DNA of 48,950 nucleotides from Candidatus Ligilactobacillus excrementigallinarum (lineage in GTDB: Bacteria; Bacillota; Bacilli; Lactobacillales; Lactobacillaceae), in assembly GCA_019114385.1 (NCBI GenBank), contig DXFP01000019.1:1-48950 (forward strand), in the 5' to 3' direction. Every line of letters begins with the position of its first letter. Within the stretch, counting starts at the first letter, position 1. The notes under the pieces are model-generated. The model saw only the letters and a list, made by a program, of their open reading frames with translations, was not told the origin of the DNA and searched no databases. Position numbers and translations under genes: made by a program. Positions 17,916 to 44,804 of the stretch are shown here, in pieces.

Positions 17916-20900
17916 CTATTCTGCAGTCCAAGTCAATGTTGCTGTGACATTGACTGTGATTGGTGAACCATATTCAACGTTTTCGTTTGCTTTTGCAATA
18001 TCGAAACCTGGTTGGATATAGTACTTGTAGTAGTAATGGCCAGAACCATTTGGATATTCAACTGATTTTTGCAAGTTTGTACCGTCAACACCATTTTCAT
18101 TTGGAATAGCAGTGTAAATCTTGTTTATATCAGTTGTTGATACCTTGTCACCTTTTGTTCCAGTAAATGAACCAGGAACTGAACTTGGCATGTCCGTTAC
18201 AATGGTGCCAACTTTTTCAGGATTAGCTACTGTAATGTTATCCACGCCAGGGCCATTGTAAACTGCAACTACCTTATATTGTACTTGAGTAGTTGCTTGT
18301 TCTTGAGGATCAGTACCTGGCTTGTTATTACTGTTATCATTGTTGTCCGTATTTACAGGTGGAGTTGTAACTGTAGTTGTTATGTCTTTTAATGGTGCAT
18401 AGTTAATCTTATCTGGTGAAGTATAACCATGGAGCATGCCGTTAAAGACGTTCAATGATTGCAATGGGAAACCGTGGTCATCAAACATTGCCATGTTATC
18501 CCATGTTGTACCGCCCCAAGCAGGTTTGCCTTGGTAGTACATTACACTGTCTGGTGAGTATCCAACTGAGTGGCTGTTTGCCCAACCGGTACCAAAGACT
18601 TCTGACATTGCATCATTGTATTGCCAGTTTACCCAACCAGCTTTGTCTGGAATCCATGCTGGTTCCCAGTAGAAAGCACCTAAGCCGTTGCCTGCAACTA
18701 ATTGCTTGTACATGTCAACTATTTCGTCAACTTGTCCTTGTGGTCCAACAGGGTAAGCGTTAGTGTTTTGCCACTTAGTATTGCTGTCACCGATTGAGTT
18801 GCCTGTACCATCAGCATCTTGTGTTGTACTTGCCCAACTAGTTTCAAGTACAACAAATTGCTTGTGATACTTCTCAGCAACCATTTTTTCAACTGCTAAC
18901 AAGTTGTTTGGTGTGTTAGCCCCTGTACCTAATCCGTGGCCGTTGTTATCTGCACATGACCAGAATGGGTAGTATGATGATCCCAAGACGTCGTAGTCAA
19001 CATTGTGTTGTGCCAATGTATCCATGATAAATGTGTACTTATCAATATTTGGTGTTTCCAATTGGATAGTAATCTTTGTATCTGGTGCGACTGCACGCAC
19101 AGCCTTTGAACCTGCACTCAAATAGTTGCAGATGTTGAAGGCCTTCATTGTGTCGCCCCATGCACCTTGGTATGAGCCGCCGTGATCACGGTCTGTTGAT
19201 TGTCCAAGCATACCGTTTGTGATTTCGTTACCAATTTGAATCATGCCGACATCAACTCCGGCATTCTTGAAGTCTTGCAATGTCTTCCGTGTATATTGGT
19301 AAACTTCTTGTTCGATATCGCTGACACTTAAGTTCTTCCATGCCTTAGGAACGATTTGTTTACCAGGATCAGCCCAGAAATCTGAATATTGCAAGTCAAG
19401 CATAACCTTCATACCGTATTGTTTTGCTTCCTTGGCGATTGCCAATTCGCTGGCTACGTCACAGACACCACCACCGTAGTTTTCGTTATCTGCGTTGTAT
19501 GGGTCGTTCCATAAACGTAACCGGACGTAGTTAACGCCTGCATCGTGCAAGACTTTAACTAAGCTTGCTGGATTGCCGTTGAAGTCATAGAATTGAACGC
19601 CTGCATCTTCAAGTGACTTGTAACTTGAGATATCAACTCCGCGAATCATGTCTTCTGACATACCTTCGATTGGTTTAACGACAACTTTATCGTAACGTAA
19701 ACCAGTTTCTGTACCATTCTTGAATGCATCAGTTACTTCTTGGGCAGTCATTTCAGTAGATGGCTTAGTTGATTCGTCATTAGATGTTACGCTGGCTTTG
19801 CCGTATACCAATGTAGCATTGTAGTTCAATGTTACAGTATCGCCGAATTTCACATCTTTGTTATCGTTTGCAACTTCTTGTTGTTTACCGGCTTCTTGGT
19901 CACCATCCAACCAGTATTCATAATGGTATGGGTTACCAGCTTCATCGTAGTAAGTTGTTGTGCCGATAAATGCTTTTGTCATTCCGCCAACTGTATTAGC
20001 TAAGGCTTCCAAGTTTTCGCTTGAAATTGTGTTGCCTTGAATTCCAGTTAAGACTGCTTTAGCTGTGTCTGTTAAACCTGCGTTAACTAAGTCAGCGGGA
20101 TTCATTGAACCAGTTGTCAAACCGTCTTTAACTATGGCACTTACGCCAGGAGCATTGTAGACGTTTGTAATTTTGTATTGTACATTTGAAGTCTTCTTCA
20201 CAAAGTTGCTTTGCTTGTCTTTGTTGTAGAAGATGACAGTTGTATTCCAGTTCTTAGAATTATTAGCATCCTGGATTGTTGCTCCGACACCTAAAGCTTT
20301 CCAGTTTGAAGCATCGTTGCCTAACATTGAAACAATCTTTTGGGCAGCCTGTTGAGCGGCTTGTTCCTTGTTAGGAGCAGATACAGTTACTTGGTAAGCT
20401 TTAGCTGTACCATTCATTAATTGGTTGTTTTGCAAGTTGATTTCGATTGATTGTTCATCGTTCTTCAAATCGCCTTGAGCAACTAATTGAGCTGTATCAT
20501 GCAAACCAAATGCTTGATAGTTGTTTTGATTGCCTTTCCAGTCTGCATCCATTTGAGCTTTGCCTTGACTGTTTAAGATATGGTTGATTTGGCTGGCAAC
20601 GTCATCTCGATACTGTGCAACTTCTGAGTTTTGAGGTTCTAAGGCCCCAGTAACTGTGTTGAAGTAGTACTTTTGACCGTTAATTGTTTGCCAACCGTAA
20701 ACCATGTTACCTAAACCATCGTAGTAGCAAAGTTTGTGTTGGTCATCAATGTATTGGAAGTTATTCTTTACTTGAGCACCAGTTACTTTGTCAAAGTATT
20801 GCCATTTACCATTGATTTGTTGTTGACCATAAACCATATTACCGTCTTTGTCATAGTAAACTTCTTTGTTTTGTTCTTTGATCCAAACATACTTGTTCTT

Positions 20901-22688
20901 AGCCTGTGCTCCAGTTATCTTATCAAAGTATTGCCACTTGCCATAGAGTTTTTGTTGGCCATAAACCATATTACCCAAGCGATCGTAGTAAACTTCCTTC
21001 TTTTGGTCCGCAATCCAAATGTATTTGTTTTTAGCTTGCGCCCCAGTAACTTTGTCGAAGTATTGCCATTTACCATTGATTTTTTGTTGGCCATAAACCA
21101 TGTTGCCTAAACGATCATAGTAGACTTCTTTGTTTTGTTCTTTGATCCAGATATACTTGTTTTTAGCTTGTGCTCCAGTAGTTGTGTCAAAGAATTGCCA
21201 CTTGCCCTTAATCTTTTGTTGACCATAGACCATTTGAGCAGTATTAGGATTGTAGTAAACTTCCTTCTTTTGATTCTTGATCCAAACGTAACCTGTTATT
21301 GGGTTGCCGTTGCGGTCAAAGTTGTACCAGTGGCCGGCAATCTTTTGTTGGCCATGAAGTTTCAATGCTCCAGTAACTTTATCAAAGTTGTAAGTCTTAC
21401 CAGCAATCTTGTGCTTACCATATTGCATTTGGCCATTGTTATTGTAGTAAACCAGTTTGTGTTGACCTGGAATATATGTGATTCCACGACTCATTGCACC
21501 AGTTACCTTATCAAAGTTATACCAGTGACCTTTAATTTTTTGTTGACCATAGACCATGTTGCCTAGACGATCATAGTAAACCGTCTTGTTTTGATTTTTG
21601 ATGTTAACAAACTTGTTCTTAGCTTGTGCCCCAGTAACTTGGTCAAAGAATTGCCATTTACCTTTGATTTTTTGTTGACCATAGACCATGTTACCTGAGC
21701 CATCGTAGTAAACTTCTTTCTTTTGGTTAGCAATCCAGACATACTTAGCCTTAGCTTGCGCCCCAGTTACAGTATCGAAGTATTGCCAGTGGCCGTTAAT
21801 CTTTTGTTGGCCGTAAACCATGTTTCCTTTGTTAGGATCATAGTAAACTTCCTTCTTTTGTTCATTTAACCACTTGTAACCAAATTGCATTGCGCCGGTT
21901 ACTTTATCAAAGTAGTACCAGTTGTTCTTGATTTTTTGTTGACCGTAAACCATAGCACCTGATTCAGGGTTGTAGTAAACGGTCTTGTTTTGGTCTTTGA
22001 TGTATTGGAAACCAGTGTAGTTTTTCTTAGTTTCCTTGTTTTGTAAGTACCATTGACCATTTTGCTTAATTTGAACTGCATCGTCATGTTGTTGAGCTTG
22101 TTGAGCTTTGTTGATCTTTTGTGATGATGAAGCAGTTTGATTTGAAGCTGCAGCTTTTTGAGTATTATTAGTTTCAACTTTGTTGTCAGTAGTCTTAGCT
22201 TGAACTTGGTTATTGTCAACTGCCTTAGTGTTTGTCTTAGCAGCTGGAGTTGAACTCTTTGTATTCTTGACAGTATTGTTGTTTGTTGGAACAGCAGCTA
22301 ATTGAGTTTGTTTAGTTTGACTATTGTTCGAGTTGACAGAAGTGCTTGATTTTGCAGAACTGCTCTTAGCACTTGATGATGTTTTAGCAGTTGTATCTTG
22401 AGCAGCAGCTTTTGATTGTTGTGAAGTTGCCATCAAGTTTGTGTTAACACGTGTCTTAGCAGTATCTTGAGCAGAACTTTGACTGCTCTTCAAAGCAACT
22501 GTTTGTTGATTTGCCAACGAATCTGTTTTGGACTGTGTTGTTGTTTGACTGTCTGATGTGTTTGAAACACTGTCAGCTTTAACAGTATCGTGGGCAGTTA
22601 GACCAGCAGTTAAACCGAAGAACACGATTGGTGCAATTACCCAGTTTTTACCGGATTTATACATCTTAAAACGTTTCTTGCGTTCCAT
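17916..22688 (-). CDS. Secreted GH53 endo-beta-1,4-galactanase with KxYKxGKxW signal, Ser-rich linker, glucan-binding repeats and a duplicated beta-rich accessory domain
   Basis: RFKMYKSGKNW signal; GH53 core RGVDISSYKSLEDAGVQFYD...YVRLRLWNDP...MIQIGNEITNGML...VVLETSW; many repeats at 20636-22076. Confidence 0.9.
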   Translation of the reverse strand: MERKKRFKMYKSGKNWVIAPIVFFGLTAGLTAHDTVKADSVSNTSDSQTTTQSKTDSLANQQTVALKSSQSSAQDTAKTRVNTNLMATSQQSKAAAQDTTAKTSSSAKSSSAKSSTSVNSNNSQTKQTQLAAVPTNNNTVKNTKSSTPAAKTNTKAVDNNQVQAKTTDNKVETNNTQKAAASNQTASSSQKINKAQQAQQHDDAVQIKQNGQWYLQNKETKKNYTGFQYIKDQNKTVYYNPESGAMVYGQQKIKNNWYYFDKVTGAMQFGYKWLNEQKKEVYYDPNKGNMVYGQQKINGHWQYFDTVTGAQAKAKYVWIANQKKEVYYDGSGNMVYGQQKIKGKWQFFDQVTGAQAKNKFVNIKNQNKTVYYDRLGNMVYGQQKIKGHWYNFDKVTGAMSRGITYIPGQHKLVYYNNNGQMQYGKHKIAGKTYNFDKVTGALKLHGQQKIAGHWYNFDRNGNPITGYVWIKNQKKEVYYNPNTAQMVYGQQKIKGKWQFFDTTTGAQAKNKYIWIKEQNKEVYYDRLGNMVYGQQKINGKWQYFDKVTGAQAKNKYIWIADQKKEVYYDRLGNMVYGQQKLYGKWQYFDKITGAQAKNKYVWIKEQNKEVYYDKDGNMVYGQQQINGKWQYFDKVTGAQVKNNFQYIDDQHKLCYYDGLGNMVYGWQTINGQKYYFNTVTGALEPQNSEVAQYRDDVASQINHILNSQGKAQMDADWKGNQNNYQAFGLHDTAQLVAQGDLKNDEQSIEINLQNNQLMNGTAKAYQVTVSAPNKEQAAQQAAQKIVSMLGNDASNWKALGVGATIQDANNSKNWNTTVIFYNKDKQSNFVKKTSNVQYKITNVYNAPGVSAIVKDGLTTGSMNPADLVNAGLTDTAKAVLTGIQGNTISSENLEALANTVGGMTKAFIGTTTYYDEAGNPYHYEYWLDGDQEAGKQQEVANDNKDVKFGDTVTLNYNATLVYGKASVTSNDESTKPSTEMTAQEVTDAFKNGTETGLRYDKVVVKPIEGMSEDMIRGVDISSYKSLEDAGVQFYDFNGNPASLVKVLHDAGVNYVRLRLWNDPYNADNENYGGGVCDVASELAIAKEAKQYGMKVMLDLQYSDFWADPGKQIVPKAWKNLSVSDIEQEVYQYTRKTLQDFKNAGVDVGMIQIGNEITNGMLGQSTDRDHGGSYQGAWGDTMKAFNICNYLSAGSKAVRAVAPDTKITIQLETPNIDKYTFIMDTLAQHNVDYDVLGSSYYPFWSCADNNGHGLGTGANTPNNLLAVEKMVAEKYHKQFVVLETSWASTTQDADGTGNSIGDSNTKWQNTNAYPVGPQGQVDEIVDMYKQLVAGNGLGAFYWEPAWIPDKAGWVNWQYNDAMSEVFGTGWANSHSVGYSPDSVMYYQGKPAWGGTTWDNMAMFDDHGFPLQSLNVFNGMLHGYTSPDKINYAPLKDITTTVTTPPVNTDNNDNSNNKPGTDPQEQATTQVQYKVVAVYNGPGVDNITVANPEKVGTIVTDMPSSVPGSFTGTKGDKVSTTDINKIYTAIPNENGVDGTNLQKSVEYPNGSGHYYYKYYIQPGFDIAKANENVEYGSPITVNVTATLTWTAE
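20636..22076 (-). repeat. Glucan-binding repeat array of GH53 gene
   Basis: ~10 tandem units KYIWIADQKKEVYYDRLGNMVYGQQKLYGKWQYFDKITGAQAKN and variants. Confidence 0.85.
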
Positions 22689-28422: not shown

Positions 28423-28489
28423 TATACAATAAAAGTGAGTGTTTTTTGTTAGGTATATCTGGGAACGAAAAATTTAGAGGAGATTGATT

Positions 28490-31114
28490 ATGGAAAGCAA
28501 AAAGAGATTTAAAATGTACAAAGCCGGTAAAAATTGGGTAGTTGCTCCCATCGTATTCTTGGGTTTAACTAGTTTAGGGGTAACTAAAGCCAATGCGGAT
28601 ACAGTCACACCAGCAACTAGCTCAAGTGTGACAAGTCAAGTGCAAGCTCAAACCAGCTCTCAAGACTTGCAAGCTAGTCAAGTAAGTTTAAAATCAACTA
28701 GTGCAGTTTCAAGCAGTGTAAGCAGCCGGAATGTCACAAGTCAAAGTAAGGTTGAAAGTTCTAACTCAAAGAGTGCAGTAAGCAGCACAACTCAGACTGC
28801 AAAAGCAAGTACAAACTCAAGCACAGTATCTGAAACTTCTGCAACAACTAAATCACAAGCTGCAGTTGAAAATCAATCTGAAACAGCAGCTCAAGCAAGT
28901 TCAGCTTCAGTTACTAGTTCATCAACTATTGAAAACAAGCAAGTTTCAAGCAGTGCTGTAAATGCAAAACAAGCAAGTCAATCAAGTAAGAGTGCACAAT
29001 CAAGACGCTTAGCAGCAATGCCTGCAGCTCAAACAACGAAGACAGACGATTCAAAACAAGCTGCTGCAACTGATGAAACAGTAAAGACAACACAAAATGA
29101 ACAAAAATCAGCATCTGCATTAATAAATCAAACTGCAACGCCAAATGATCAACAAACACAAAATAATAATCAAACTGCAACTAAAGTAGATAATCAAACT
29201 GTTTCAACTGTTACTGGGGCAACAGCTGTAAATGTAGATTCAAAGATTAATACGCAATTGAATCAAACTCAAGCTCAACAAACAGTTGCCAAGACGGCTA
29301 ATACACCGGTGACAACGGATGCAACAAAGAATAAAGAATCAGCAGTGAAAGCAACGACACAATTCCGTCCAGTTTCATTTGCGGCTTCAACAGCATATGT
29401 TGATATCAGTAAGAACCAAGGCTATGTAAAAGCTGATACAATTGATATTGCAAGTTATCAAGGAAATCTTTCAGTGGCTCAATTTAAGACATTGAAGAAA
29501 TATGGAATTCGCAACGTTATTATTAAAACTTCACAATATAGTAATTATGTAAATCCATATGCAAAGCAGCAAATTGCCAATGCAAAGGCTGCAGGATTAA
29601 ACGTGGCAGTTTACCACTATGCAGGTTTTGCAAATGCTGCTCAAGCCAGCGAAGAAGCTGACTATTGGGCAGGAGTATTAAATAACATGGGAATTTCTAA
29701 GGATACTGCAATTGTCTGTGATTTGGAATCAGATTATACCAAGAATAAGAATGTTGGTTCATCATTAAAGACTTTCTGGAATGAAATGGCAAAACATGGT
29801 TATAAAAATCATGTGCTATATGTTTATCAAGCATATGCATCCCAGTATTCTGAAGTACTAAATACGGTTTCTAAGAATAAAATTTGGATGGCTCAATATC
29901 CTTATAATCCAACAACAAATTGGAATACTCAATATGGTGCATGGCAATTTAGCGACAATGGCCACTGTCCTGGAATTAGCTCTACAATTGATTTAACACA
30001 CTGCTACAATGCATCAATCTTTAACAGCAGTAATGGTGGAAGTGTGTCATCAGAATCTAGCAATGAAGGACAAAAATATGTTAACGGTCATTGGCAATAT
30101 TTGAAAAATGGCAAGGCTGTTAAGAATCAATATGTCTGGATTGCTGACCAACATAAAGAAGTCTACTATGACGGCAACGGCAACATGGTCTATGGCCAAC
30201 AAAAAATCAACGGCCACTGGCAATACTTTGACAAGGTAACTGGTGCACAAGCTAAGAACAAGTATGTTTGGATTAAAGAACAAAACAAAGAAGTTTACTA
30301 TGATGACAATGGCAACATGGTCTATGGCCAACAAAAGATTAATGGCAAATGGCAATACTTTAACACAACTACTGGTGCGCAAGTTAAGAACCAATATGTG
30401 TGTATTGCTGATCAAAATAAAGAAGTTTATTATGATCGCTTGGGCAATATGGTATATGGTCAACAAAAGATCAATGGCAAGTGGCAATATTTCGATACAG
30501 TTACTGGTGCGCAAGCCAAGAATAAGTATGTCTGGATCAAGGAACAGAATAAAGAAGTTTACTATGATCGTTTAGGCAACATGGTCTATGGCCAACAAAA
30601 GATTAACGGTAAATGGCAATACTTTAACCGGGTAACTGGTGCACAAGCCAAGAACCAATACATCTGGATTGCTGACCAACATAAGGAAGTCTTTTATGAC
30701 CGCTCAGGCAATATGATTTATGGCCAACAAAAGATTAATGGCAAGTGGCAATACTTTGACAAGGTAACCGGCGCACAAGTAAAAGATAGTTACTTACAGA
30801 TTCCAGAACAAAATAAAGAAGTTTACTATGACAAGAATGGTGATATGGTTTATGGTCAACAAAAGATCAATGGCCACTGGCAATTCTTCGATAAGGTAAC
30901 TGGTGCGCAAGCTAAGAGCAAGTATGTCTGGATTGCCGATCAACAAAAAGAAGTTTACTATGATGAAAAAGGCGATATGGTATACGGCTGGCAAAAGATT
31001 GACGGCAAATGGCAATACTTCGATCCAATCACAGGTGCTCAAGTTAAGAGCAAGATGATTGAAATTGATGGCAAACGTTATAGTTTTGATCGGTTAGGAA
31101 ACTTAATTAAATAA
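28490..31114 (+). CDS. Secreted GH25 lysozyme-like muramidase with KxYKxGKxW signal, Ser-rich linker and C-terminal glucan-binding repeats
   Basis: RFKMYKAGKNW signal; TIDIASYQGNLSVAQFKTLKKYGIRNVIIKTSQ...AVYHYAGF...AIVCDLESDYT; repeats from ~30060 to end. Confidence 0.88.
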   Translation: MESKKRFKMYKAGKNWVVAPIVFLGLTSLGVTKANADTVTPATSSSVTSQVQAQTSSQDLQASQVSLKSTSAVSSSVSSRNVTSQSKVESSNSKSAVSSTTQTAKASTNSSTVSETSATTKSQAAVENQSETAAQASSASVTSSSTIENKQVSSSAVNAKQASQSSKSAQSRRLAAMPAAQTTKTDDSKQAAATDETVKTTQNEQKSASALINQTATPNDQQTQNNNQTATKVDNQTVSTVTGATAVNVDSKINTQLNQTQAQQTVAKTANTPVTTDATKNKESAVKATTQFRPVSFAASTAYVDISKNQGYVKADTIDIASYQGNLSVAQFKTLKKYGIRNVIIKTSQYSNYVNPYAKQQIANAKAAGLNVAVYHYAGFANAAQASEEADYWAGVLNNMGISKDTAIVCDLESDYTKNKNVGSSLKTFWNEMAKHGYKNHVLYVYQAYASQYSEVLNTVSKNKIWMAQYPYNPTTNWNTQYGAWQFSDNGHCPGISSTIDLTHCYNASIFNSSNGGSVSSESSNEGQKYVNGHWQYLKNGKAVKNQYVWIADQHKEVYYDGNGNMVYGQQKINGHWQYFDKVTGAQAKNKYVWIKEQNKEVYYDDNGNMVYGQQKINGKWQYFNTTTGAQVKNQYVCIADQNKEVYYDRLGNMVYGQQKINGKWQYFDTVTGAQAKNKYVWIKEQNKEVYYDRLGNMVYGQQKINGKWQYFNRVTGAQAKNQYIWIADQHKEVFYDRSGNMIYGQQKINGKWQYFDKVTGAQVKDSYLQIPEQNKEVYYDKNGDMVYGQQKINGHWQFFDKVTGAQAKSKYVWIADQQKEVYYDEKGDMVYGWQKIDGKWQYFDPITGAQVKSKMIEIDGKRYSFDRLGNLIK
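30060..31110 (+). repeat. Glucan-binding repeats of GH25 gene
   Basis: ~8 tandem 132-bp units YVWIKEQNKEVYYDRLGNMVYGQQKINGKWQYFDTVTGAQAKNK. Confidence 0.85.
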
Positions 31115-33899: not shown

Positions 33900-35018
33900 A
33901 TGACAAAATATTTAGTTGTTGGTGCCGGTTTGTTCGGTGCTACATTTGCGCATGAAGCTGCAAAACGTGGTCATGAAGTTCATGTAATTGAAAAACGGGA
34001 CCACATTGCAGGTAACATTTATACAAAGGAAATTGACGGAATTCAAGTTCACCAATATGGTGCTCACATTTTCCATACATCAAAAAAGGAAATCTGGGAT
34101 TACGTCAACCAATTTGCAGAATTTAACCGCTATACAAACAGTCCAATTGCAAATTACCACGGTGAAATCTACAACATGCCATTTAACATGAATACGTTCA
34201 ACAAGTTATGGGGCGTAATTACACCGCAAGAAGCTGAAGACAAGATTAACGAACAACGAGCTGTTTTGAAAGGCAAGAAACCTGAAAACCTTGAAGAACA
34301 AGCAATTTCTTTAGTTGGTACAGATATCTACAAGAAATTAGTTAAGGAATATACAGAAAAGCAATGGGGACGTGATGCAACTGAATTGCCTCCATTTATC
34401 ATCAAGCGTTTACCAGTTCGGTTTACATATGATAACAACTACTTCAACGATACATACCAAGGAATTCCAATTGGTGGTTATACTCAAATCGTTGAAAAGA
34501 TGTTAGATGATGAACACATTACTGTAGAAGTGAATACTGATTTCTTTGACAAAAAAGATGAATACTTGAAGAACTATGATAAGGTAGTCTTTACTGGAAT
34601 GATCGATCAATTCTTCGATTACAAGTTGGGTGAATTGGAATACCGCAGTTTGCGTTTTGAAACTGAAGAATTAGATGTAGACAACTACCAAGGAAATGCC
34701 GTAGTGAACTACACAGATAAGGAAACACCTTATACTCGGATTATCGAACACAAACACTTCGAATTTGGTAAGGGTGACAAGAACAAGACAGTTATCACTC
34801 GCGAATACCCAGCAACATGGCATCGCGGTGATGAACCATACTACCCAATTAACGATGCCAAGAACAACTCATTGTACAAGCAATATGTTGAATTGGCTGA
34901 AAAAGAAGCTAAGAATGTCATCTTTGGCGGTCGTTTGGGTCAATACCGCTACTACAACATGGACCAAGTAATTGGTGCGGCTTTGATTACAGTAGATAAG
35001 GAATTTGGAACAAAGTAA
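33900..35018 (+). CDS. glf: UDP-galactopyranose mutase
   Basis: YLVVGAGLFGATFAHEAAKRGHEVHVIEKRDHIAGNIYT, QYGAHIFHTS, EKQWGRD. Confidence 0.96.
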   Translation: MTKYLVVGAGLFGATFAHEAAKRGHEVHVIEKRDHIAGNIYTKEIDGIQVHQYGAHIFHTSKKEIWDYVNQFAEFNRYTNSPIANYHGEIYNMPFNMNTFNKLWGVITPQEAEDKINEQRAVLKGKKPENLEEQAISLVGTDIYKKLVKEYTEKQWGRDATELPPFIIKRLPVRFTYDNNYFNDTYQGIPIGGYTQIVEKMLDDEHITVEVNTDFFDKKDEYLKNYDKVVFTGMIDQFFDYKLGELEYRSLRFETEELDVDNYQGNAVVNYTDKETPYTRIIEHKHFEFGKGDKNKTVITREYPATWHRGDEPYYPINDAKNNSLYKQYVELAEKEAKNVIFGGRLGQYRYYNMDQVIGAALITVDKEFGTK

Positions 35019-35048
35019 TTTCTGCTTCAGTAAATTAAATAAATTCAA

Positions 35049-35085
35049 TGGAGGCTAAGACAGTTTTTATGTCATGGCCTCCTTG
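35049..35085 (+). terminator. Imperfect terminator-like hairpin after glf
   Basis: GGAGGCTAAGACAG-ttttta-TGTCATGGCCTCC. Confidence 0.4.
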
Positions 35086-35132
35086 TGTTATGATTAAGTG
35101 GTATTTTGATTTAATTATTATGGTGGTAAATA

Positions 35133-36551
35133 ATGAAAGTTTTGAAAAACTACTTGTACAATGCCGGATATCAAATTTTGGCATTGATTGTACCGTTGAT
35201 TACCGCACCGTATATCAGTCGGGTGTTACATCCAGCTGGAGTCGGATATAATGCCTATACTAACTCGATTATTCAATATTTCGTGTTAGCGGCAGATTTA
35301 GGGATTGCGTTATACGGTCAGCGTGAAATTGCATATGTGCGTGAAAATCGCGAAAAGATGTCGCAAACGTTCTGGGAAATTCAGTGTTTGAAAATTTTCA
35401 CAACAGTTTGTTCATACTTCTTGTTTGTGATCTTTTTGAATGTATATAACCATTACACCATCTTTTTGTGGGTTCAATCATTAAACGTGATTGCAGCCGC
35501 TTTTGATGTTTCGTGGTTATACATGGGATTGGAAGATTTTAAGCGGACGGTTATTCGGAATACGTTCGTACGTTTGTTGTCATTAGCATTGATTTTCACA
35601 TTTGTTAAAAAACCAAGCGATGTTGCGTTATATATCTTCATCGTGGCGATTTCAAATGTAATCGGGAACTTGACATTGTGGCCCCATTTAAGAAAAATTT
35701 TGGTACCGGTCAAGTTTAAGAGTTTGCATATTTGGCAGCATTTACGGCCAACCATTGCATTGTTTATTCCAACGATTGCAACTTCAGTTTATTTGCAATT
35801 AAATAAAACAATGTTGGGGGCAATGATGGGAACTAAGTATTCTGGATTCTATCAAAACTCCGATAACTTAGTTAAAATGGTGCTGTCATTAGCTACTTCG
35901 CTTGGGACAGTTATGCTGCCTCATATGTCGGCGGCGTTTGCTAAAGGTGACAAAAAGGGCATGCAAAAGATGTTGTATAAATCTTTTGATATGCTGTCAC
36001 TATTATCAATTGCGATGATGTTCGGAGTCGCCGCAGTTTCAACAAATTTGGCACCATTCTTCTATGGAAAAGGTTTCGGTCCAGTTGGCCCAGCAATGAT
36101 GATTGAATCAATCGTAATTTTATTGATTGCCTGGAGTAATACAATTGGAAAACAGTTTTTAGTACCAACAGACCATGTTAAAGAATTTACGACTTCGGTT
36201 GTTGCTGGAGCGGTCTTTAATTTGTTTGCCAACTTCCTATTTATCCATTTGTGGGGCTTAAATGGTGCAATGTGGGCAACTGTTGCTTCAGAAGCAGTTG
36301 TTACCGGCTATCAATTATGGGTCGTTCGTAAAGAAGTAGAATTCCCAGAAATGTTCAGAAACTTCTTCAAATACATGATTGCTGGATTAGCAATGTTCAT
36401 CCCAGTTTACTTAATGAATATCAAGTTGCATACCAGCATCTTGACTCTTGGATTAGAAGTTGTCGTTGGGGTAGCAATCTTCATCATTATGATTTTTGTT
36501 TTGCGCCCAACTAGTTTAGAAACAATCATGGGATTGATTAAAAGAAAATAG
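35133..36551 (+). CDS. Wzx-type polysaccharide flippase
   Basis: MVF/MOP superfamily; APYISRVLHPAGVGYNAYTNSIIQYFVLAADLGIALYGQREIAYVRENREKMSQTFWEI. Confidence 0.85.
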   Translation: MKVLKNYLYNAGYQILALIVPLITAPYISRVLHPAGVGYNAYTNSIIQYFVLAADLGIALYGQREIAYVRENREKMSQTFWEIQCLKIFTTVCSYFLFVIFLNVYNHYTIFLWVQSLNVIAAAFDVSWLYMGLEDFKRTVIRNTFVRLLSLALIFTFVKKPSDVALYIFIVAISNVIGNLTLWPHLRKILVPVKFKSLHIWQHLRPTIALFIPTIATSVYLQLNKTMLGAMMGTKYSGFYQNSDNLVKMVLSLATSLGTVMLPHMSAAFAKGDKKGMQKMLYKSFDMLSLLSIAMMFGVAAVSTNLAPFFYGKGFGPVGPAMMIESIVILLIAWSNTIGKQFLVPTDHVKEFTTSVVAGAVFNLFANFLFIHLWGLNGAMWATVASEAVVTGYQLWVVRKEVEFPEMFRNFFKYMIAGLAMFIPVYLMNIKLHTSILTLGLEVVVGVAIFIIMIFVLRPTSLETIMGLIKRK

Positions 36552-36552
36552 G

Positions 36553-36588
36553 GTGAAAGCATCTTGGCGGATAGCTGGGATGCTTTTT
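36553..36588 (+). terminator. Terminator after wzx
   Basis: AAAGCATC...GGATGCTTTTTTG. Confidence 0.65.
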
Positions 36589-36602
36589 TGTGTTTGAGGG
36601 CT

Positions 36603-36900
36603 GTTGCTCGAGACGGTTTTCGCATCCTTTCCTTACATCACGCTTGGCTTAACGCTCTGCATATCCTTGTTTAGTTGAGTTCCGGCCTAACTTGCTATGC
36701 ATAAGTATGCAATGCTTCGAATACGCTGTGCTATTCGGGCGCACTGCAAAACTTATGCCACGCAAGTTCGAGACGGCCTTCACATCCTGTTTTTAGTTGA
36801 GTTCGCAAATATAAGTACGCAGCCCTCTGACCTGCATCCACAGATCATTCGGCCTGCTAGCTTATATTGACCGTTGCTCGAGACGGTTCTCGCATCCTTA
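36603..36900 (-). repeat. Mosaic intergenic repeat block containing repeat family 1 copy C (36632-36709)
   Basis: GTTGCTCGAGACGGTT(T/C)TCGCATCCTT at 36603 and 36874, related TTCGAGACGGCCTTCACATCCTG at 36767, plus the 78-nt copy C. Confidence 0.8.
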
Positions 36901-37038
36901 ATCTTAACCGCATTTTTACAATTTTGATGTCTCATTAATGGTAAAATGAAACTGTTACCCAAGGGGATGTTGCTATAAACGGAATTATGTATTAAAATAT
37001 CTTAGATATGACATTCTTTTTAGTTAGGAGCAATTCTT

Positions 37039-37815
37039 TTGAAATCAGAAATATATGTAGTAAGTCATAAAAAGGCTCGGATGCCAGAAGATAAGATGTA
37101 TATTCCCGTTCAAGTTGGGTTTAATCCTGAGAATTTCGAAGGATACATGCGTGACAACACGGGAGATAATATTTCTGACAAAAACGCTTCATATTGTGAA
37201 TTAACCGCACAATATTGGGGAGCAAAGAACCGTCAAGCAGATGTCAAAGGATTGGTTCATTATCGTCGTTTGTTCACTAATGGTCATTCAGACTTTTTCA
37301 AGAGTGTGGATGCTAAGTGGAAAGACGTGTTAACACATGAAACATTAGAAAAATTAATGAGTAAGTATGATATGGTATTGCCTAAGAAGCGGAACTACTA
37401 TATCGAAACTTTGTGGTCACACTATGAACATTCACATCATATTGAAGGCTTAGAAGTGACACGCGAAGTAATTAACGATCTTTTTCCAGAATATTTACCA
37501 GAATTTGATAAGCATATGCAAGAAAAGAAAGGCCATATGTTTAACATTTTGATTGCGAAGAGCAACTTATTTGATGAATATACAGATTGGTTGATGAAGG
37601 TCTTGAATGAAGTTGAAAATCGCATTGATATTTCAAATTACAGCAAGAGCGAACAACGGATTTTGGGGTATATCAGCGAGTTGTTGTTAGATGTATGGGT
37701 CGAACACAACCAAATTAATTACACTGAATTGCCGGTGATGTTTATGGGGAATCAACACTGGGTCAAGAAGATCGCAAACTTTTTGAAGCGAAAGGTAAAG
37801 GGAAGAGAAGAATAA
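37039..37815 (+). CDS. DUF4422 glycosyltransferase-like protein
   Basis: IYVVSHKKARMPEDKMYIPVQVG...GDNISDKNASYCELTAQYWGAKN...GLVHYRRLF. Confidence 0.85.
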   Translation: MKSEIYVVSHKKARMPEDKMYIPVQVGFNPENFEGYMRDNTGDNISDKNASYCELTAQYWGAKNRQADVKGLVHYRRLFTNGHSDFFKSVDAKWKDVLTHETLEKLMSKYDMVLPKKRNYYIETLWSHYEHSHHIEGLEVTREVINDLFPEYLPEFDKHMQEKKGHMFNILIAKSNLFDEYTDWLMKVLNEVENRIDISNYSKSEQRILGYISELLLDVWVEHNQINYTELPVMFMGNQHWVKKIANFLKRKVKGREE

Positions 37816-37845
37816 TTTACTATTCGAATTTTGAAGGTGCGCTAG

Positions 37846-38499
37846 ATGAATAAGAATGAAAAAATTATCCTTGATCGGAAGGAAATCAATAAACATCATG
37901 TATATCGAACTTGTAAGCGACTCTTTGATGTTGTTGCAAGTGCATGCGGTTTAGTTTTACTGAGTCCAGTATTTTTAGCAACTGCAATTGCGATTAAATT
38001 GGATGATGGCGGTCCGGTCTTTTATAACCAAGAACGGATTGGAAAAGACGGTAAGCCATTTAAGATGTATAAGTTCCGTTCAATGAAGGTTAATGCCGAT
38101 CAGGAAATTGAAAAATTACAAAAGCATAATGAAGTTGACGGAGCAATGTTCAAGATGAAAAATGATCCGCGAATTACTCGTGTTGGGAAGTTTATTCGCA
38201 AGACAAGTATCGATGAATTTCCTCAATTATTGAACGTGCTGCTCGGTCAAATGAGTATTGTAGGGCCGCGTCCGCCTTTGCCACGTGAAGTTGCAGAATA
38301 TACTGACTATGATAAACAACGCTTGTATGTTCGCCCAGGATGCACAGGCTTATGGCAAGTAACAGTGCGGAATAGTGTCGGCTTCCATGAAATGGTAAAT
38401 ATCGATTTGGATTATATCAAGCGTCGCAGTTTCCATTTGGATTTGGAAATTATGCTGAAGACCATTAAAGTCATTTTTGTACCGAATACCGCATACTAG
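37846..38499 (+). CDS. Priming sugar transferase (undecaprenyl-phosphate hexose-1-phosphate transferase), unit 1
   Basis: CKRLFDVVASACGLVLLSPVF...GPVFYNQERIGKDGKPFKMYKFRSMKVNADQ...KTSIDEFPQLLNVLLGQMSIVGPRPPLP. Confidence 0.9.
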   Translation: MNKNEKIILDRKEINKHHVYRTCKRLFDVVASACGLVLLSPVFLATAIAIKLDDGGPVFYNQERIGKDGKPFKMYKFRSMKVNADQEIEKLQKHNEVDGAMFKMKNDPRITRVGKFIRKTSIDEFPQLLNVLLGQMSIVGPRPPLPREVAEYTDYDKQRLYVRPGCTGLWQVTVRNSVGFHEMVNIDLDYIKRRSFHLDLEIMLKTIKVIFVPNTAY

Positions 38500-38509
38500 G
38501 AGGTGCATT

Positions 38510-39505
38510 ATGCCGAAATTAAGCATTATAGTTCCTGTATATAATTGTGAAAAACATTTGGAACGCTGTATTGGATCAGTATTAAAGCAAGATTTTAAGG
38601 ATTATGAGCTTTTGCTGGTTGATGATGGCTCAACCGATAATTCTGGTAAAATTGCCAATGATTATGCCGATGATAATCAGCAGATTCGCGTTATTCACCA
38701 AGCAAATCAAGGAGTTTCGAATGCTCGTAATACTGGGTTATTAGAGGCTAGTGGGGAATATGTGATGTTTGCGGATGCTGACGATTATTTGTTACCAGCA
38801 GTAAGCGACGTACTTGAAAATGAACAGTTATCAGATTTGACATGTTTAAGCTTTGAAGTCGGTAAGAATTTGAAGAAAATTACCGGTGATCATCGCTATC
38901 AAGGCGATACAAGCGAAGATGCAAAGGTAATGATGCTGGAAAATCCAACCCAATACATGACGGTTTGGAGCAAAATTTTCAAACGTGAAATCATTGAACA
39001 ACATAAGTTACGCTTCAATACAAGCTTAAGAGTGGCTGAAGATGGCGACTTCATGTTAAGATACTTGTTGAACATTGATTCGATTCAGTTTTTAATGCAG
39101 TTAGGTTATCATTATTCAAATGATGTAAAATCGGTAATGTCGACCTTTGATCATAAGAATAAAGATTATCTGAATGCGTTAATGGCTTCGCAACGAAGTT
39201 TAGGAAAGATATCATCTCGGATGCAAAAATCATTTGCAGTATATGTGTTAATGCACTTGAATATTATGATGGTACACGAAACCTTTGCTTCAGCTAATCC
39301 ATTGAAATATAGTGAACGAATCAATGAATTAAAACAGATTCTCAAAGAACCGATTTTTGAAGAATCCCTGACAGCAATTAAGGTGAGCGATTGTCATGGG
39401 GCAAGAATGTTGCCGATTATCTTTTTGAAGATGCATGCATATCGCTTAGCCTCAATTTTATTTATCCTGCGTGCAAAACAAAATGAAGGCCAAGTCAACG
39501 AATAG
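38510..39505 (+). CDS. GT2 family glycosyltransferase
   Basis: MPKLSIIVPVYNCEKHLERCIGSVLKQDFKDYELLLVDDGSTDNSG; RBS AGGAGG before ATG 38510. Confidence 0.88.
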   Translation: MPKLSIIVPVYNCEKHLERCIGSVLKQDFKDYELLLVDDGSTDNSGKIANDYADDNQQIRVIHQANQGVSNARNTGLLEASGEYVMFADADDYLLPAVSDVLENEQLSDLTCLSFEVGKNLKKITGDHRYQGDTSEDAKVMMLENPTQYMTVWSKIFKREIIEQHKLRFNTSLRVAEDGDFMLRYLLNIDSIQFLMQLGYHYSNDVKSVMSTFDHKNKDYLNALMASQRSLGKISSRMQKSFAVYVLMHLNIMMVHETFASANPLKYSERINELKQILKEPIFEESLTAIKVSDCHGARMLPIIFLKMHAYRLASILFILRAKQNEGQVNE

Positions 39506-39522
39506 TTGATTTTCCCTTACTG

Positions 39523-39556
39523 AAGGAAGTCGAAGATAAACGACTTCCTTTTTTTG
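39523..39556 (+). terminator. Rho-independent terminator
   Basis: GGAAGTCG-aagataaa-CGACTTCC + T7. Confidence 0.75.
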
Positions 39557-39634
39557 TTGTCTTTTTACTTTATTAAACACTAAAAAAACTGTAATATAAG
39601 TCCCCTTATCTCTATATCTGCATAATTGAATTCA

Positions 39635-39695
39635 AAAAAACAGACATGTTTGTAAGTTCTTTTCTTACAACATGCCTGTTTTAGTTTTTGTCACA
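39635..39695 (+). repeat. Palindromic dispersed element family 2, short copy 3
   Basis: AAAACAGACATGTTTGTAAG-ttctttt-CTTACAACATGCCTGTTTTagtttTTGTCACA; central ~40 nt absent. Confidence 0.75.
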
Positions 39696-39709
39696 TTTTT
39701 TTATATAAA

Positions 39710-40909
39710 TCATTCAATTTCCGGTTGTGCATCATTGAATGATTTCAAATTGGCAAATAAACTTAATAAGATAAAGTTAAATGAACTGTCCCAGAAGTGT
39801 TGGTCAATGGCACCACTTAAGATGAAGAGCATGAAGCAAATTTCAAGACAGAATGCTTTGGCACTTATCAAACGACGGTTCATAGCTAAAATTAAAATCA
39901 AAAGCATGATGAACACGACTAATCCATACATGAAGATTGTCCGGAAAAAGACAGAGTCAATGTAGTAGGCACCGCCGCCAGGCTGATTGATAAATTGACC
40001 AAACAGTTGAATGTTGTACTTTTGGAATGTTAACTGTTCATATGATAATCGACCAGAAAGTACGGTGTTTACGAATCCTAATAGTTTGCTTCCGGGATGG
40101 TAGCATAATCCCATCAAGAAGATAATCCCAATAAAAATATACATGCCTAATGTAATTAATTGGTTAGATGCTCGTTGTAAAAGTTTAGCTTCCTTGTTGT
40201 AGAAAATAATCAACAAGAATAAAAGCAGCATTAACATCATATCTAAACGTGTGTTGGTTAAGGTGTAGTACCAAATTGCAATCGCAGCGTACGAGATGTA
40301 TTCTGGTAAACTGAAGCGGAAGCGGCGCAATGCAGCGTAAGCCATCAAGACACAGAATCCGCGAGCAGCAAAGTCAGATGGATAAACAGCACCCATACCG
40401 TACCGTGTCATTGGTGAGTACAGTGAACGGATTCCTTCGTAGTTCCGAATGACGCCGCCCAATGCCAAGCCCATTGCGATTAAGATTCCAATGACATTCA
40501 CAGTGATAAAGACTTTCAAAACCAATCGATAGTCAACATCTTTAGCACCGTAAACAAATGGAATGAAGTAGAATAAACTGAAATCGCCGGCGTGATAGCC
40601 AATGTTATACAAGACACATTCCAACAAGGCGAAGACGGTCAGTTCCATTAACGAATGGTGATCGAACAGCGCAATCTTGAGAACGATAAAGACTGCAGGA
40701 ATGGCTAATAACAGGAAGATGACATGTTGTGTAATCAAATGACCTGCCATTGTAGTCCCTTTGATAAATGTTCCTGAAATATAAATTGCCAGGAAAAATA
40801 GATAGTATCCGGTAACAAAATGCGGATGTTTCTCATTTAGACGAGCAGTGAATTGTTCCCGCCATTTTAGCAAATTTGCTAATGTAATATTATTTAAAAA
40901 ATTAGTCAT
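39710..40909 (-). CDS. Wzy-like polysaccharide polymerase / O-antigen ligase-like membrane protein
   Basis: Polytopic with large loop (GYHAGDFSLFYFIPFVYGAKD...YTLTNTRLDMMLMLLLFLLIIF). Confidence 0.7.
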   Translation of the reverse strand: MTNFLNNITLANLLKWREQFTARLNEKHPHFVTGYYLFFLAIYISGTFIKGTTMAGHLITQHVIFLLLAIPAVFIVLKIALFDHHSLMELTVFALLECVLYNIGYHAGDFSLFYFIPFVYGAKDVDYRLVLKVFITVNVIGILIAMGLALGGVIRNYEGIRSLYSPMTRYGMGAVYPSDFAARGFCVLMAYAALRRFRFSLPEYISYAAIAIWYYTLTNTRLDMMLMLLLFLLIIFYNKEAKLLQRASNQLITLGMYIFIGIIFLMGLCYHPGSKLLGFVNTVLSGRLSYEQLTFQKYNIQLFGQFINQPGGGAYYIDSVFFRTIFMYGLVVFIMLLILILAMNRRLISAKAFCLEICFMLFILSGAIDQHFWDSSFNFILLSLFANLKSFNDAQPEIE

Positions 40910-41333
40910 GGTTTAAACCTCGAATTTTAAAGTAACTCATCTAAGTATAACATTTTCTGAAAAAATCCGCTTATTCATTTATAACCGAAAATTAAAACTA
41001 CAATTCAACGCAAATCTTTTCGAATAGAGAAGATAAATGCAACATCTTGATAAAAATCGGTACATTTTAAATTAATCTGTCAAAATGTTTAAAGCTTATT
41101 CAGATAAAAACGGATAATGAAAATTAAGTAAGTGTTAAATAATAGGAATGAATTCGATTTCGGTTTATGTTTTTTTAAAGGTCTTAAACTAACTGCGAAT
41201 GTCCGTGAAAATATGATAAAATTAAAAGAGTATAGTGTCTAAGTCTAGACAAAAGTTCCCATGAATGCTTTGGGGCAAAAAGTTTCTGGGAATCAATATG
41301 AATCAATCACTTAAAAGGGAAGTGAGACAAGTT

Positions 41334-42431
41334 ATGCCAAGCAAGAAAACGGTCGGTTGGGTAGTAGGAACCATTCTCGTTCTTGGCGGTGGCGGTTATG
41401 CACTTGCAAAATACAACACTAATAGTATGGCGCATGTCATGTATCAACGCATAACGCATACTGCAGACCATTCAATTCAATCCGCAAAATCGCAGCAAAC
41501 ACATTCAGATAAGCAAACGACATCAACTTCGTCTTCTACAGAAGTAGATACGGGTGCAGTTCGCAAATTGTTGACAGAAAAGAAGTTTGATGGAGCTTAC
41601 CTCGTGCTTGAAGATGGCAAAATGTCAAAAACGAAGTATGTAGGCAGCAATCAAGATCAACTTAAGGATAAGTATTTCCAAATTGCTGACTTGGAAAATG
41701 CAGTTACGGCAGCAGCTGTGCTGAAATTGGTTGATCAAGGCAAATTGAAGTTATCGACTCCAGTTAGTCACTACTACGACTCATTGGATGTTTCAAGTGA
41801 TGTTACAGTCGGTGATTTATTGAAGATGACTTCTGGATTAAGTAATAGTTCAATTCCAAATAATCAGCTATCCAATGTCTTGGAATGGAATGTAAACCAT
41901 ACCAATTCAGACAACAGCGACAACTATGATTATCAGGAAACAAACTATGTTTTATTAGAAGGCATTATTTCGCAAGTTACAAACGGTTCATATCAAGATT
42001 ACATTAACCAAGCAATCTTGAAACCTAATCACTTGAATCAAGTGAAGTTTGTACCAAGTATTAATGATAATCGCTTAGCCACACCATATAACGGCAAGGA
42101 AGAGGTTGATAATCCAACTTTGGCAAAAGCGATGAACGAACAAATGGGTAAAAATCAGCTGATGGCAACACCAGCAGGCATGATGAAACTCACCCAAGTC
42201 TTAGTGAAGGATTATGGCGACAACAAGAACTTTACTGCTAGCCGAAACTTTACGGGACAATTAATGAAGGATGAAAGTAAATATTACGGTTCAGGCGGCT
42301 TAGTCGGTTACCGGACATCAGTGGCAATCAGTAAGGACGGTAAGAAAGGAATCGTTTTGATGAGCAATCACTCAAACGGTAAAGACAACATGACTGGACT
42401 GGTTAAAGAAAGTTACGATAAATTGAATTAA
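41334..42431 (+). CDS. Serine-hydrolase / beta-lactamase-like (class C fold) membrane-anchored protein with degenerate active-site motifs
   Basis: N-terminal TM; fold-like YFQIADLENAVTAAAVLKLVDQGKLKLSTPVSHYYDSL..VGDLLKMTSGLSN..YQETNYVLLEGI. SxxK position reads D-L-E-N. Start at 41334 favoured over 41265. Confidence 0.75.
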   Translation: MPSKKTVGWVVGTILVLGGGGYALAKYNTNSMAHVMYQRITHTADHSIQSAKSQQTHSDKQTTSTSSSTEVDTGAVRKLLTEKKFDGAYLVLEDGKMSKTKYVGSNQDQLKDKYFQIADLENAVTAAAVLKLVDQGKLKLSTPVSHYYDSLDVSSDVTVGDLLKMTSGLSNSSIPNNQLSNVLEWNVNHTNSDNSDNYDYQETNYVLLEGIISQVTNGSYQDYINQAILKPNHLNQVKFVPSINDNRLATPYNGKEEVDNPTLAKAMNEQMGKNQLMATPAGMMKLTQVLVKDYGDNKNFTASRNFTGQLMKDESKYYGSGGLVGYRTSVAISKDGKKGIVLMSNHSNGKDNMTGLVKESYDKLN

Positions 42432-42447: not shown

Positions 42448-43221
42448 ATGAACGAGGCCGAAAGCCAAGAAAAATCATCAAAATTTAGCGATATTGGTGA
42501 GATTTTAGGGATTTTGCGTAAGCGTAGAGGAATAATTATTTGGACAACCATTATTTGTGCTGTCTTAACCTTTTTCACATCTGTCTTTTTGATTTCACCA
42601 AAGTATAGTTCAAATACGGATATTTTGGTAAATCGTAAAGTAAATAATCAAGAAAATGCTCAAGCTCAAATTCAAGCTGATGTGCAAATGATTAATACAT
42701 ATAAGGATATTATAACTAGCCCAACAATTTTAAATACGGTTAGTGAAAAACTTGAGAATCAAGGATATAAAATAAATGCAAATGAGATAAAAGATTGTAT
42801 TACAATAAATAATCAACAGAATTCACAAGTTTTTACAGTTACAGTAAAAACAAAAGATCCTAATTTATCTGCTGCAGAAGCGAATACAATTGCAGATACG
42901 TTTAAAGAAAAAGTAAAAAAAATCATGAGCGTAAATAACGTTTCAATTTTGTCTAGAGCTGCTCCTAATCCGAATCCAGTTTCACCTAAAATATTGTTAA
43001 ATTGTATTGCGGGCATGTTTTTTGGGATTATTCTAGGATTAACTATCGCATTTATTTCAAATGGATTAGATAGAACAGTGAACAATGAAGAATTTATTAC
43101 TAAAACATTGAAATTGAATGACTTAGGAATTATTAATGAAATACCAACAAATAAAGTTAAAAAGATGTTAATGACGAGTCATTCAACTTCAAAAGGATCA
43201 AGAAGAAAACGGAGGGTTTAA
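42448..43221 (+). CDS. wzd: EPS chain-length / tyrosine-kinase modulator (Wzd/CpsC-like)
   Basis: Two TM flanking a coiled loop, Wzz-type (ILRKRRGIIIWTTIICAVLTFFTSVFLISPKYSSNTDILVNRK). Confidence 0.85.
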   Translation: MNEAESQEKSSKFSDIGEILGILRKRRGIIIWTTIICAVLTFFTSVFLISPKYSSNTDILVNRKVNNQENAQAQIQADVQMINTYKDIITSPTILNTVSEKLENQGYKINANEIKDCITINNQQNSQVFTVTVKTKDPNLSAAEANTIADTFKEKVKKIMSVNNVSILSRAAPNPNPVSPKILLNCIAGMFFGIILGLTIAFISNGLDRTVNNEEFITKTLKLNDLGIINEIPTNKVKKMLMTSHSTSKGSRRKRRV

Positions 43222-43224
43222 TCA

Positions 43225-44013
43225 ATGTCAATCTTTGATAAATTTACGCATCGTAAAAATAAATTAGACGAAGACAGTATGAAGTATGGGGTTGCATTGA
43301 TTACTAAAATAGACCCTCAATCAGGAATTTCAGAACAATACCGGACAATCCGGACAAACTTGAAATTCTCTTTCTTAGATTCAAATTTCAAGGTTTTAGC
43401 AATTATGTCAGCTTTGCCATCTGAGGGAAAATCAACAGTTAGTGCGAACTTGGCAATTTCATGGGCTGAAGAAAATAAGAAAGTGTTATTGATTGATGTT
43501 GATTTACGTCGACCAACAGTTCACCAATCATTTAAAGTTTCGAATCGATATGGGTTATCAAATATAATTACATCATCATCAAAAACAGTTAATATTTCTG
43601 AAATGATTGACCATTCAGGCGTAGAAAATCTCGATATACTGACTAGTGGTCCGATTCCACCAAATCCTGCTGAGTTATTGGGGTCAGAGCGTTTCAATCA
43701 ATTGTTGGAATTCTTGAAAGGTCAATATGACTTTATTATCTTGGATGCTCCTCCTGTTGATACTGTTACAGATGGACAAATTGTTGCAACAGAGGCAGAT
43801 GGAGTAGCCTTAGTTGTACCACAAGGTATTGCCAATAAGGATGCAGTAATTAGAGCAGTTAAACTGTTAAAACAAGTAAAAGCAAATATTTTAGGCGCTA
43901 TAATGAATCGTTTTACTGCCGCAGAAGCAGGTAGTTATTATGGTAGTTACTACGGTGGATATTACGGTGGTTATTATGGAACAGACGATAAGAAAGAAGC
44001 CAAGAGAAAGTGA
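43225..44013 (+). CDS. wze: Bacterial tyrosine kinase (Wze/CpsD-like)
   Basis: EQYRTIRTNLKFS, Walker A ALPSEGKSTVSANLA, Walker A' LLIDVDLRRPTVH, C-terminal Tyr cluster GSYYGSYYGGYYGGYYG. Confidence 0.93.
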   Translation: MSIFDKFTHRKNKLDEDSMKYGVALITKIDPQSGISEQYRTIRTNLKFSFLDSNFKVLAIMSALPSEGKSTVSANLAISWAEENKKVLLIDVDLRRPTVHQSFKVSNRYGLSNIITSSSKTVNISEMIDHSGVENLDILTSGPIPPNPAELLGSERFNQLLEFLKGQYDFIILDAPPVDTVTDGQIVATEADGVALVVPQGIANKDAVIRAVKLLKQVKANILGAIMNRFTAAEAGSYYGSYYGGYYGGYYGTDDKKEAKRK

Positions 44014-44804
44014 CATTAGTAGATTTACACGCCCATTTATTGCCTGGAGTTGATGACGGATCGCCTGATTTACAAACTTCCTTGCAGTTAGCACGTAAAT
44101 CAGTCGCAGATGGAGTCACCCATATGTTATTGACTCCGCATCACATGGATGGAACTTATGTAAACCATAAACAAGATGTAATTGCTAAAACGGAAATGTT
44201 TCAGAATGCATTAGATCAAGCTCAAATTCCATTGAAGGTTTTTCCAGGACAAGAAGTGCACTTAACGGATAAGCTATTAGATGCACTGGATCAGGATGAT
44301 ATCTTATTTGCGGATGCGAATGACCGCTATATGATGCTGGAACTACCGCACACGCATGTTCCAGAATATTTCTTGAAAAATATTTTACCGGAATTACAAA
44401 TGTGCGGGATTACCCCAGTGATTGTTCATCCGGAACGCAATCAAGGTATCCAACGTGATCACAGCTTGTTATACAGCCTAGTGGAAGCCGGTTGTTTAAC
44501 ACAATTGACGGCCAGCAGCTATGTTGATGTATTTGGAGAACAAATTACAGGTCTTACACAAAAAATCATTGATGCTAATTTAGGGACGACATTCTCATCT
44601 GATGCGCACGCCCTTAAAGGTCGGGGCAGCCGCATGGATGCAGCATATCGAAAGCTCAGTGATCAAAATGAAGATTGTGCAACACGTTATTGGCAAAATG
44701 CAAAGGCAATCTTAAACGGAGATGATGTGCCAATGGACGATCTTCACCAAATTAAAGAAAAACGCAATTTTTGGGAGAGACTCTTTAAGGGTAGACAGAA
44801 GTAA
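44010..44804 (+). CDS. wzb: PHP-type protein-tyrosine phosphatase (Wzb/CpsB-like)
   Basis: LVDLHAHLLPGVDDGSPD, LTPHHMDGTYVN, IVHPERN, SSDAHALKGRGSRM; GTG start overlapping upstream TGA. Confidence 0.92.
   Translation: MTLVDLHAHLLPGVDDGSPDLQTSLQLARKSVADGVTHMLLTPHHMDGTYVNHKQDVIAKTEMFQNALDQAQIPLKVFPGQEVHLTDKLLDALDQDDILFADANDRYMMLELPHTHVPEYFLKNILPELQMCGITPVIVHPERNQGIQRDHSLLYSLVEAGCLTQLTASSYVDVFGEQITGLTQKIIDANLGTTFSSDAHALKGRGSRMDAAYRKLSDQNEDCATRYWQNAKAILNGDDVPMDDLHQIKEKRNFWERLFKGRQK

Follow-up and report, generated by a model that had tools for sequence, protein, structure and literature searches.

The first gene of an EPS operon in the window, that is, the whole 48,950-nucleotide stretch of Ligilactobacillus DNA analysed here, raises the question of what its product does. 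Automatic annotation would name it "serine hydrolase" or "beta-lactamase family", although the usual mechanism of such enzymes is impossible for most members of the group to which it belongs. The reading favoured here, to which we would give a probability of roughly 0.6, is that the conserved protein has no catalytic function and serves Wzz-Wze-type EPS assembly as a membrane-tethered accessory, either scaffold or regulator, with a presumed partner and ligand.

The open reading frame is intact from ATG to stop. The frame itself opens at 41265, but the start was set at 41334 because orthologues begin with MxxKK and a ribosome-site-like stretch, GGGAAGTGAG, precedes this position. The product has an N-terminal membrane helix and, next to it, a short juxtamembrane segment, which a low-complexity linker connects to a PF00144 domain; both its membrane anchoring and its topology are predicted. 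The features of the gene and of its immediate neighbours are listed in Table 1.

Table 1. Coordinates in the window of the pseudoenzyme gene, its parts, and the genes that follow it
Feature	Position	Strand	Basis or remarks
Pseudo-serine-hydrolase gene, PF00144/DltE-like fold, 365 aa, EPS operon gene 1	41334..42431	+	ORF; Pfam; AlphaFold; Foldseek
N-terminal membrane helix, residues 7-27	41352..41414	+	AlphaFold helix, low confidence; hydrophobic stretch after KK in homologues
Juxtamembrane motif N30-S-M-A-H34, EPS-head group hallmark	41421..41435	+	24/24 EPS-head members vs 0/42 paralogues
Degenerate SxxK site D119-L-E-N122	41688..41699	+	Aligned with DltE SIQK; D, E, N invariant in orthologues
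Motif 2 Y200-Q-E202, Tyr kept, third residue Glu	41931..41939	+	DltE alignment; orthologues
Degenerate motif 3 region Y318-G-S-G-G-L323	42285..42302	+	DltE His347 -> Ser320; Gly348 kept as Gly321
wzz/CpsC-type chain-length determinant, next gene	42448..43221	+	PF02706 and PF13807
wze/CpsD-type tyrosine autokinase	43225..44013	+	PF13614 AAA_31; Tyr-rich C-terminus
wzb/CpsB-type phosphatase	44010..44804	+	PF19567

The fold can be assigned by homology and by a predicted model. The protein scores 96 bits against the PF00144 profile (gathering cut-off 27), the AlphaFold model is confident over this domain (most blocks above 90 pLDDT), and a Foldseek search with the model returned DltE as the top solved structure, followed by FmtA and Flp. 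A sequence-only reading of the gene had recognised the class C beta-lactamase/DD-peptidase scaffold, which these matches bear out. In place of PBP4*/EstB, its structural reference, the teichoic-acid D-Ala esterases DltE and FmtA proved to be the nearest relatives of known function.

Active PF00144 members carry a catalytic SxxK (nucleophile Ser and general-base Lys), a Tyr in motif 2, and K/H-x-G in motif 3. In the alignment with DltE (8agr), SIQK (Ser128-Lys131) falls on D119-L-E-N122 and Tyr213 on Y200, and the AlphaFold helix that takes the place of the nucleophile helix (residues 118-134) opens with D119-N122, so that neither Ser nor Lys is present at the site. Other S-x-x-K strings start only at residues 98, 347, and 360, none of which begins the nucleophile helix, and a displaced SxxK or motif 3 in the rest of the protein was rejected for want of a fitting candidate. 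Motif 2 retains its Tyr with Glu as third residue, while two sister clades have Phe or Asp in place of this Tyr. A string search of the whole protein found neither [KH][ST]G nor HxG, and motif 3 keeps its Gly alone. The replacement of Ser by Asp and of Lys by Asn, the Y-Q-E site, and the missing HxG/KTG box were all as read from the sequence, and the intact SxxK elsewhere that was to refute that reading did not turn up. DltE, an active LTA D-Ala esterase, itself retains only the motif 2 Tyr and the motif 3 Gly (PMC10241514). Since an active enzyme also departs at motifs 2 and 3, the loss of YxN and HxG weighs little alone, and it is the loss of Ser and Lys that carries the argument. A non-catalytic status of the protein at the head of the EPS operon is strongly supported by these comparisons.

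Six genomes of the same genus and a single genome from a different one encode orthologues at 47-58% identity, in all of which the two sites read D-[LT]-E-N and Y-[QE]-E. D119, E121, N122, Y200, and E202 are invariant across the window protein and six orthologues in this identity range, which argues that the degenerate sites are not due to chance and answers the proposal that their conservation be checked. Homologues before wzz in further genera have other decayed sites, namely [ATDS]-L-Q-N with Phe for Tyr, [KR]-[IV]-Q-D with Asp for Tyr, and S-A-Q-D with Tyr and HG kept. The last of these, seen in L097/L098, combines Ser, Tyr, and HxG with Asp in place of Lys and is possibly a stage before full decay. 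These two members, together with L096, which retains Ser, could speak for a residual hydrolase with another nucleophile arrangement and hence for no true pseudoenzyme. Such an activity is nonetheless highly improbable for the window protein, which lacks both residues and has no substitute SxxK.

A group profile run over 401 genomes of the family gave 25 loci at 402-489 bits, one relative at 267 bits (L200), and DltE-like proteins at no more than 248 bits; in a sample of the order's other families, no comparable member was found (best 215 bits). L200 has R-T-Q-T at the SxxK site and the motif NSLAH, and its contig ends right after the gene. Together with L200 and a split copy (L106, in genome G016), the profile loci make up 27 loci, window included, in 25 of which wzz adjoins the gene or is separated from it by one gene; L200 and L095 depart from this. 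In L095 (7582-10192), the pseudoenzyme gene is followed by wzb, no wzz/wze ORF is recognisable in the 650-base gap, and the other wze of the same genome lies on a different contig (L170). The proposed EPS-head pseudo-DltE group is characterised by the absence of the SxxK Lys, by [ND]S[LMY]A[HT] after the anchor, and by a place next to wzz, all of which the window protein shows.

Nearly identical pseudoenzyme heads were seen in genomes assigned to different genera (L088, L089, L090, L093, L094, L095), followed by differing glycosyltransferase sets, a pattern that may reflect either contaminated assemblies or a recent transfer in which the cargo was exchanged. The near-identical copies from the genera coded g3 and g36, as well as the related G016 copy, lie on short contigs and resemble the g50 copies; they may represent horizontal transfer or contamination and are not to be counted as independent. 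Plasmid-borne spread was rejected, as no close plasmid relative was found.

The contrast with relatives from other loci is sharp. The SxxK Lys is found in none of the 24 aligned EPS-head members, in which Ser persists in three (lost in 21) and Tyr in nine (lost in 15), whereas all 42 relatives from elsewhere have Ser, Lys, and Tyr. Three EPS-head members outside the alignment have also lost the Lys. The corresponding Fisher value of 1.6e-18 ignores kinship, and a single loss may underlie the whole group; the proper statement is therefore one to a few losses of catalytic residues followed by long retention. In a tree built after removal of the motif columns and the N-terminal part, the EPS-head group splits from the paralogues with a support of 90/95 and in 200/200 bootstrap trees; with a far outgroup added, the analysis no longer discriminated for or against a single origin of the group (AU p=0.30). 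The juxtamembrane [ND]S[LMY]A[HT] occurs in 24/24 EPS-head members and 0/42 relatives, in a search with the pattern [NDGS][SN][LMY][AV][HTN], which was chosen on these same sequences; L200, found later, also has the motif. A33 of the motif is invariant in 18/18.

The domain dN/dS ranges from 0.05 to 0.19 in all pairs with estimable dS (0.05-0.16 leaving out one saturated pair), and the EPS-head group is under purifying selection. This range, the full length of the other members, and the conserved core and motif make it most improbable, more so than any other reading weighed here, that the gene is a dying, pseudogene-like passenger of the EPS operon, even though catalytic residues were lost in different ways and two defective copies exist: the split copy (G016, L106) and a frame-broken second copy beside transposase-like ORFs (G076:C83, L100). 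The latter (1660-2374) lies in a genome that also has an intact copy, L099.

A rival reading is that the old pocket has been retooled, with D119, E121, N122, Y200, and E202 running a new reaction on EPS, such as an acid-base or lyase step. These residues are invariant in the window's clade, in which roughly one domain position in three is invariant, and the old site is lined by carboxylates. Across clades, however, the pocket residues differ (DxEN, [ATDS]LQN, [KR]xQD, SAQD) despite a constant operon position and juxtamembrane motif, so there is no shared catalytic set, and D119 may merely cap the helix. A retooled enzyme is thus rather unlikely, although the conservation of the family could serve an unrecognised activity. 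Because the fold, the anchor, the membrane-exit motif, and the neighbour are fixed while the active site drifts, the protein would instead act through contacts and not through chemistry.

The placement at the head of the EPS operon, also proposed from the sequence, was confirmed. The pseudoenzyme gene opens a series of + strand genes and directly precedes wzz-wze-wzb, with 16 bases between it and wzz; an epimerase gene (44822), a priming glycosyltransferase gene (45766), and further EPS genes follow. A wzy-like gene lies upstream in the opposite, divergent orientation, and no + strand match to the sigma-70 consensus was found before the pseudoenzyme gene, a negative result that is uninformative. 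Directly upstream of the operon lies a second EPS block (33900-40909; glf, wzx, glycosyltransferases, another priming transferase, and a reversed wzy-like gene), so that the EPS region contains a pair of priming transferases and a pair of wzy-like genes. Beside this region, very large secreted-looking proteins with a common N-terminal K-x-Y-K-[AS]-G-K-x-W signal (8937-11057, 11601-16430, 17919-22688, 28484-31111) form an adhesin-like island.

The slot before wzz was surveyed in 97 wzz loci, 80 of them selected by wze similarity with the neighbour unseen and 17 picked for a known member. The 80 loci yielded six more EPS-head members; in 38 of them, the slot or a position one gene off was occupied by an LCP-like protein, and the rest had other genes; over all 97, a pseudoenzyme homologue is present in 23 (plus the window) and LCP in 38. 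LCP-like proteins, which belong to a family of ligases, were recognised in this survey by sequence pattern, with one example confirmed as PF03816. No intact SxxK was found among the class C homologues of the surveyed loci. The pseudoenzyme label changes five times on the wzz tree, and the gene is therefore associated with wzz lineages that are clearly distinct from one another. L104 and L105 show that the operon head is modular: their gene order is LCP, priming transferase, pseudoenzyme, glycosyltransferase, wzz. A plain replacement of LCP by the pseudoenzyme is weakened, given that both occur in one cluster in L104/L105 and that the window's genome encodes three LCP genes elsewhere.

With regard to mechanism, the ancestor may have been a membrane-anchored serine esterase-like protein of the DltE/FmtA type. 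The EPS-linked line would have shed the general-base Lys and usually also Ser and Tyr, while retaining the fold, the anchor, the juxtamembrane motif, and the place before wzz. The anchor and the NSMAH-type motif might keep the protein close to a membrane component of the EPS machinery, Wzz being the most likely partner judging from adjacency, and the ectodomain, placed where the polymer leaves the machine, might organise or regulate polymerisation or polymer hand-over, with a putative effect on chain length or attachment. The non-catalytic part of the sequence-only reading thus stands and extends to the whole family; the role of sensor or scaffold that it gave the protein, and the wall linkage of the EPS, are putative, and most of the ligand contacts of DltE have been lost.

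A wider proposal is offered tentatively, as somewhat less probable than not to hold in full: that Lactobacillaceae have an undescribed, dedicated subunit of Wzz-Wze EPS machines, an esterase-fold pseudoenzyme serving as extracytoplasmic scaffold or regulator and perhaps feeding the Wze kinase/Wzb phosphatase cycle through Wzz, in which the pocket diverged freely after catalysis was lost and the membrane-exit motif stayed fixed. No earlier description of the pseudoenzyme gene in EPS clusters was found in full-text searches of open-access papers. If the protein is a standing part of the EPS machine, a subunit has been overlooked in the EPS operons of gut and food lactobacilli, and strains amenable to genetics would allow a test of what links the phosphorylation cycle of Wzz-Wze to the outer face.

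Several known systems resemble the window protein in part. The superfamily fold is common to class C beta-lactamase, DD-peptidase R61, EstB, and LACTB, from which it differs in having no catalytic SxxK or K/HxG and YxE in place of YxN. FmtA and Flp of Staphylococcus aureus (5ZH8, 4GDN), the former annotated as a teichoic-acid D-Ala esterase, are the next-best fold matches at only 19-21% identity, and they too differ from the window protein in the SxxK that it lacks.

DltE of Lactiplantibacillus plantarum (8AGR/8AIK/8AJI/8AKH; PMC10241514) is closest in fold (Foldseek E ~1e-20, TM ~0.78 on target, ~24% identity) and likewise has an N-terminal anchor and an extracellular domain. The window gene precedes wzz instead of lying in a dlt operon, and its product carries the NSMAH motif; the DltE-like relatives L077/L078/L079 adjoin a dltA-like ORF, as judged by eye. 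That the closest solved folds are DltE and FmtA, and that the genome encodes DltD (on another contig), would suit a protein that reads D-alanylated teichoic acid or peptidoglycan without catalysis and ties EPS output to wall state. Yet the window protein does not have the DltE set of Ser128/Lys131/Tyr213 and ligand contacts (Y338, R345, H347, and others): only 3 of the 12 published active-site or ligand-contact residues (PMC10241514) are kept, as equivalents of Y211, Y213, and G348, those of Y338, R345, H347, Y351, E290, and Q381 being lost, and the [KR]xQD clade keeps 0-1. Binding of LTA in the manner of DltE is therefore unlikely, DltE-like LTA reading was not supported when the contacts were compared, and a wall reader in the broader sense is unlikely as well, if slightly less so than a retooled enzyme.

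The accessory role favoured here finds its nearest positional counterpart in LCP proteins (LytR-CpsA-Psr; CpsA/EpsA) at the head of wzz-wze-wzb operons. The LCP domain, PF03816, is unrelated to that of the window protein, which gave no PF03816 match in the Pfam search, but the two have in common the slot, the N-terminal anchor, and an extracytoplasmic domain.
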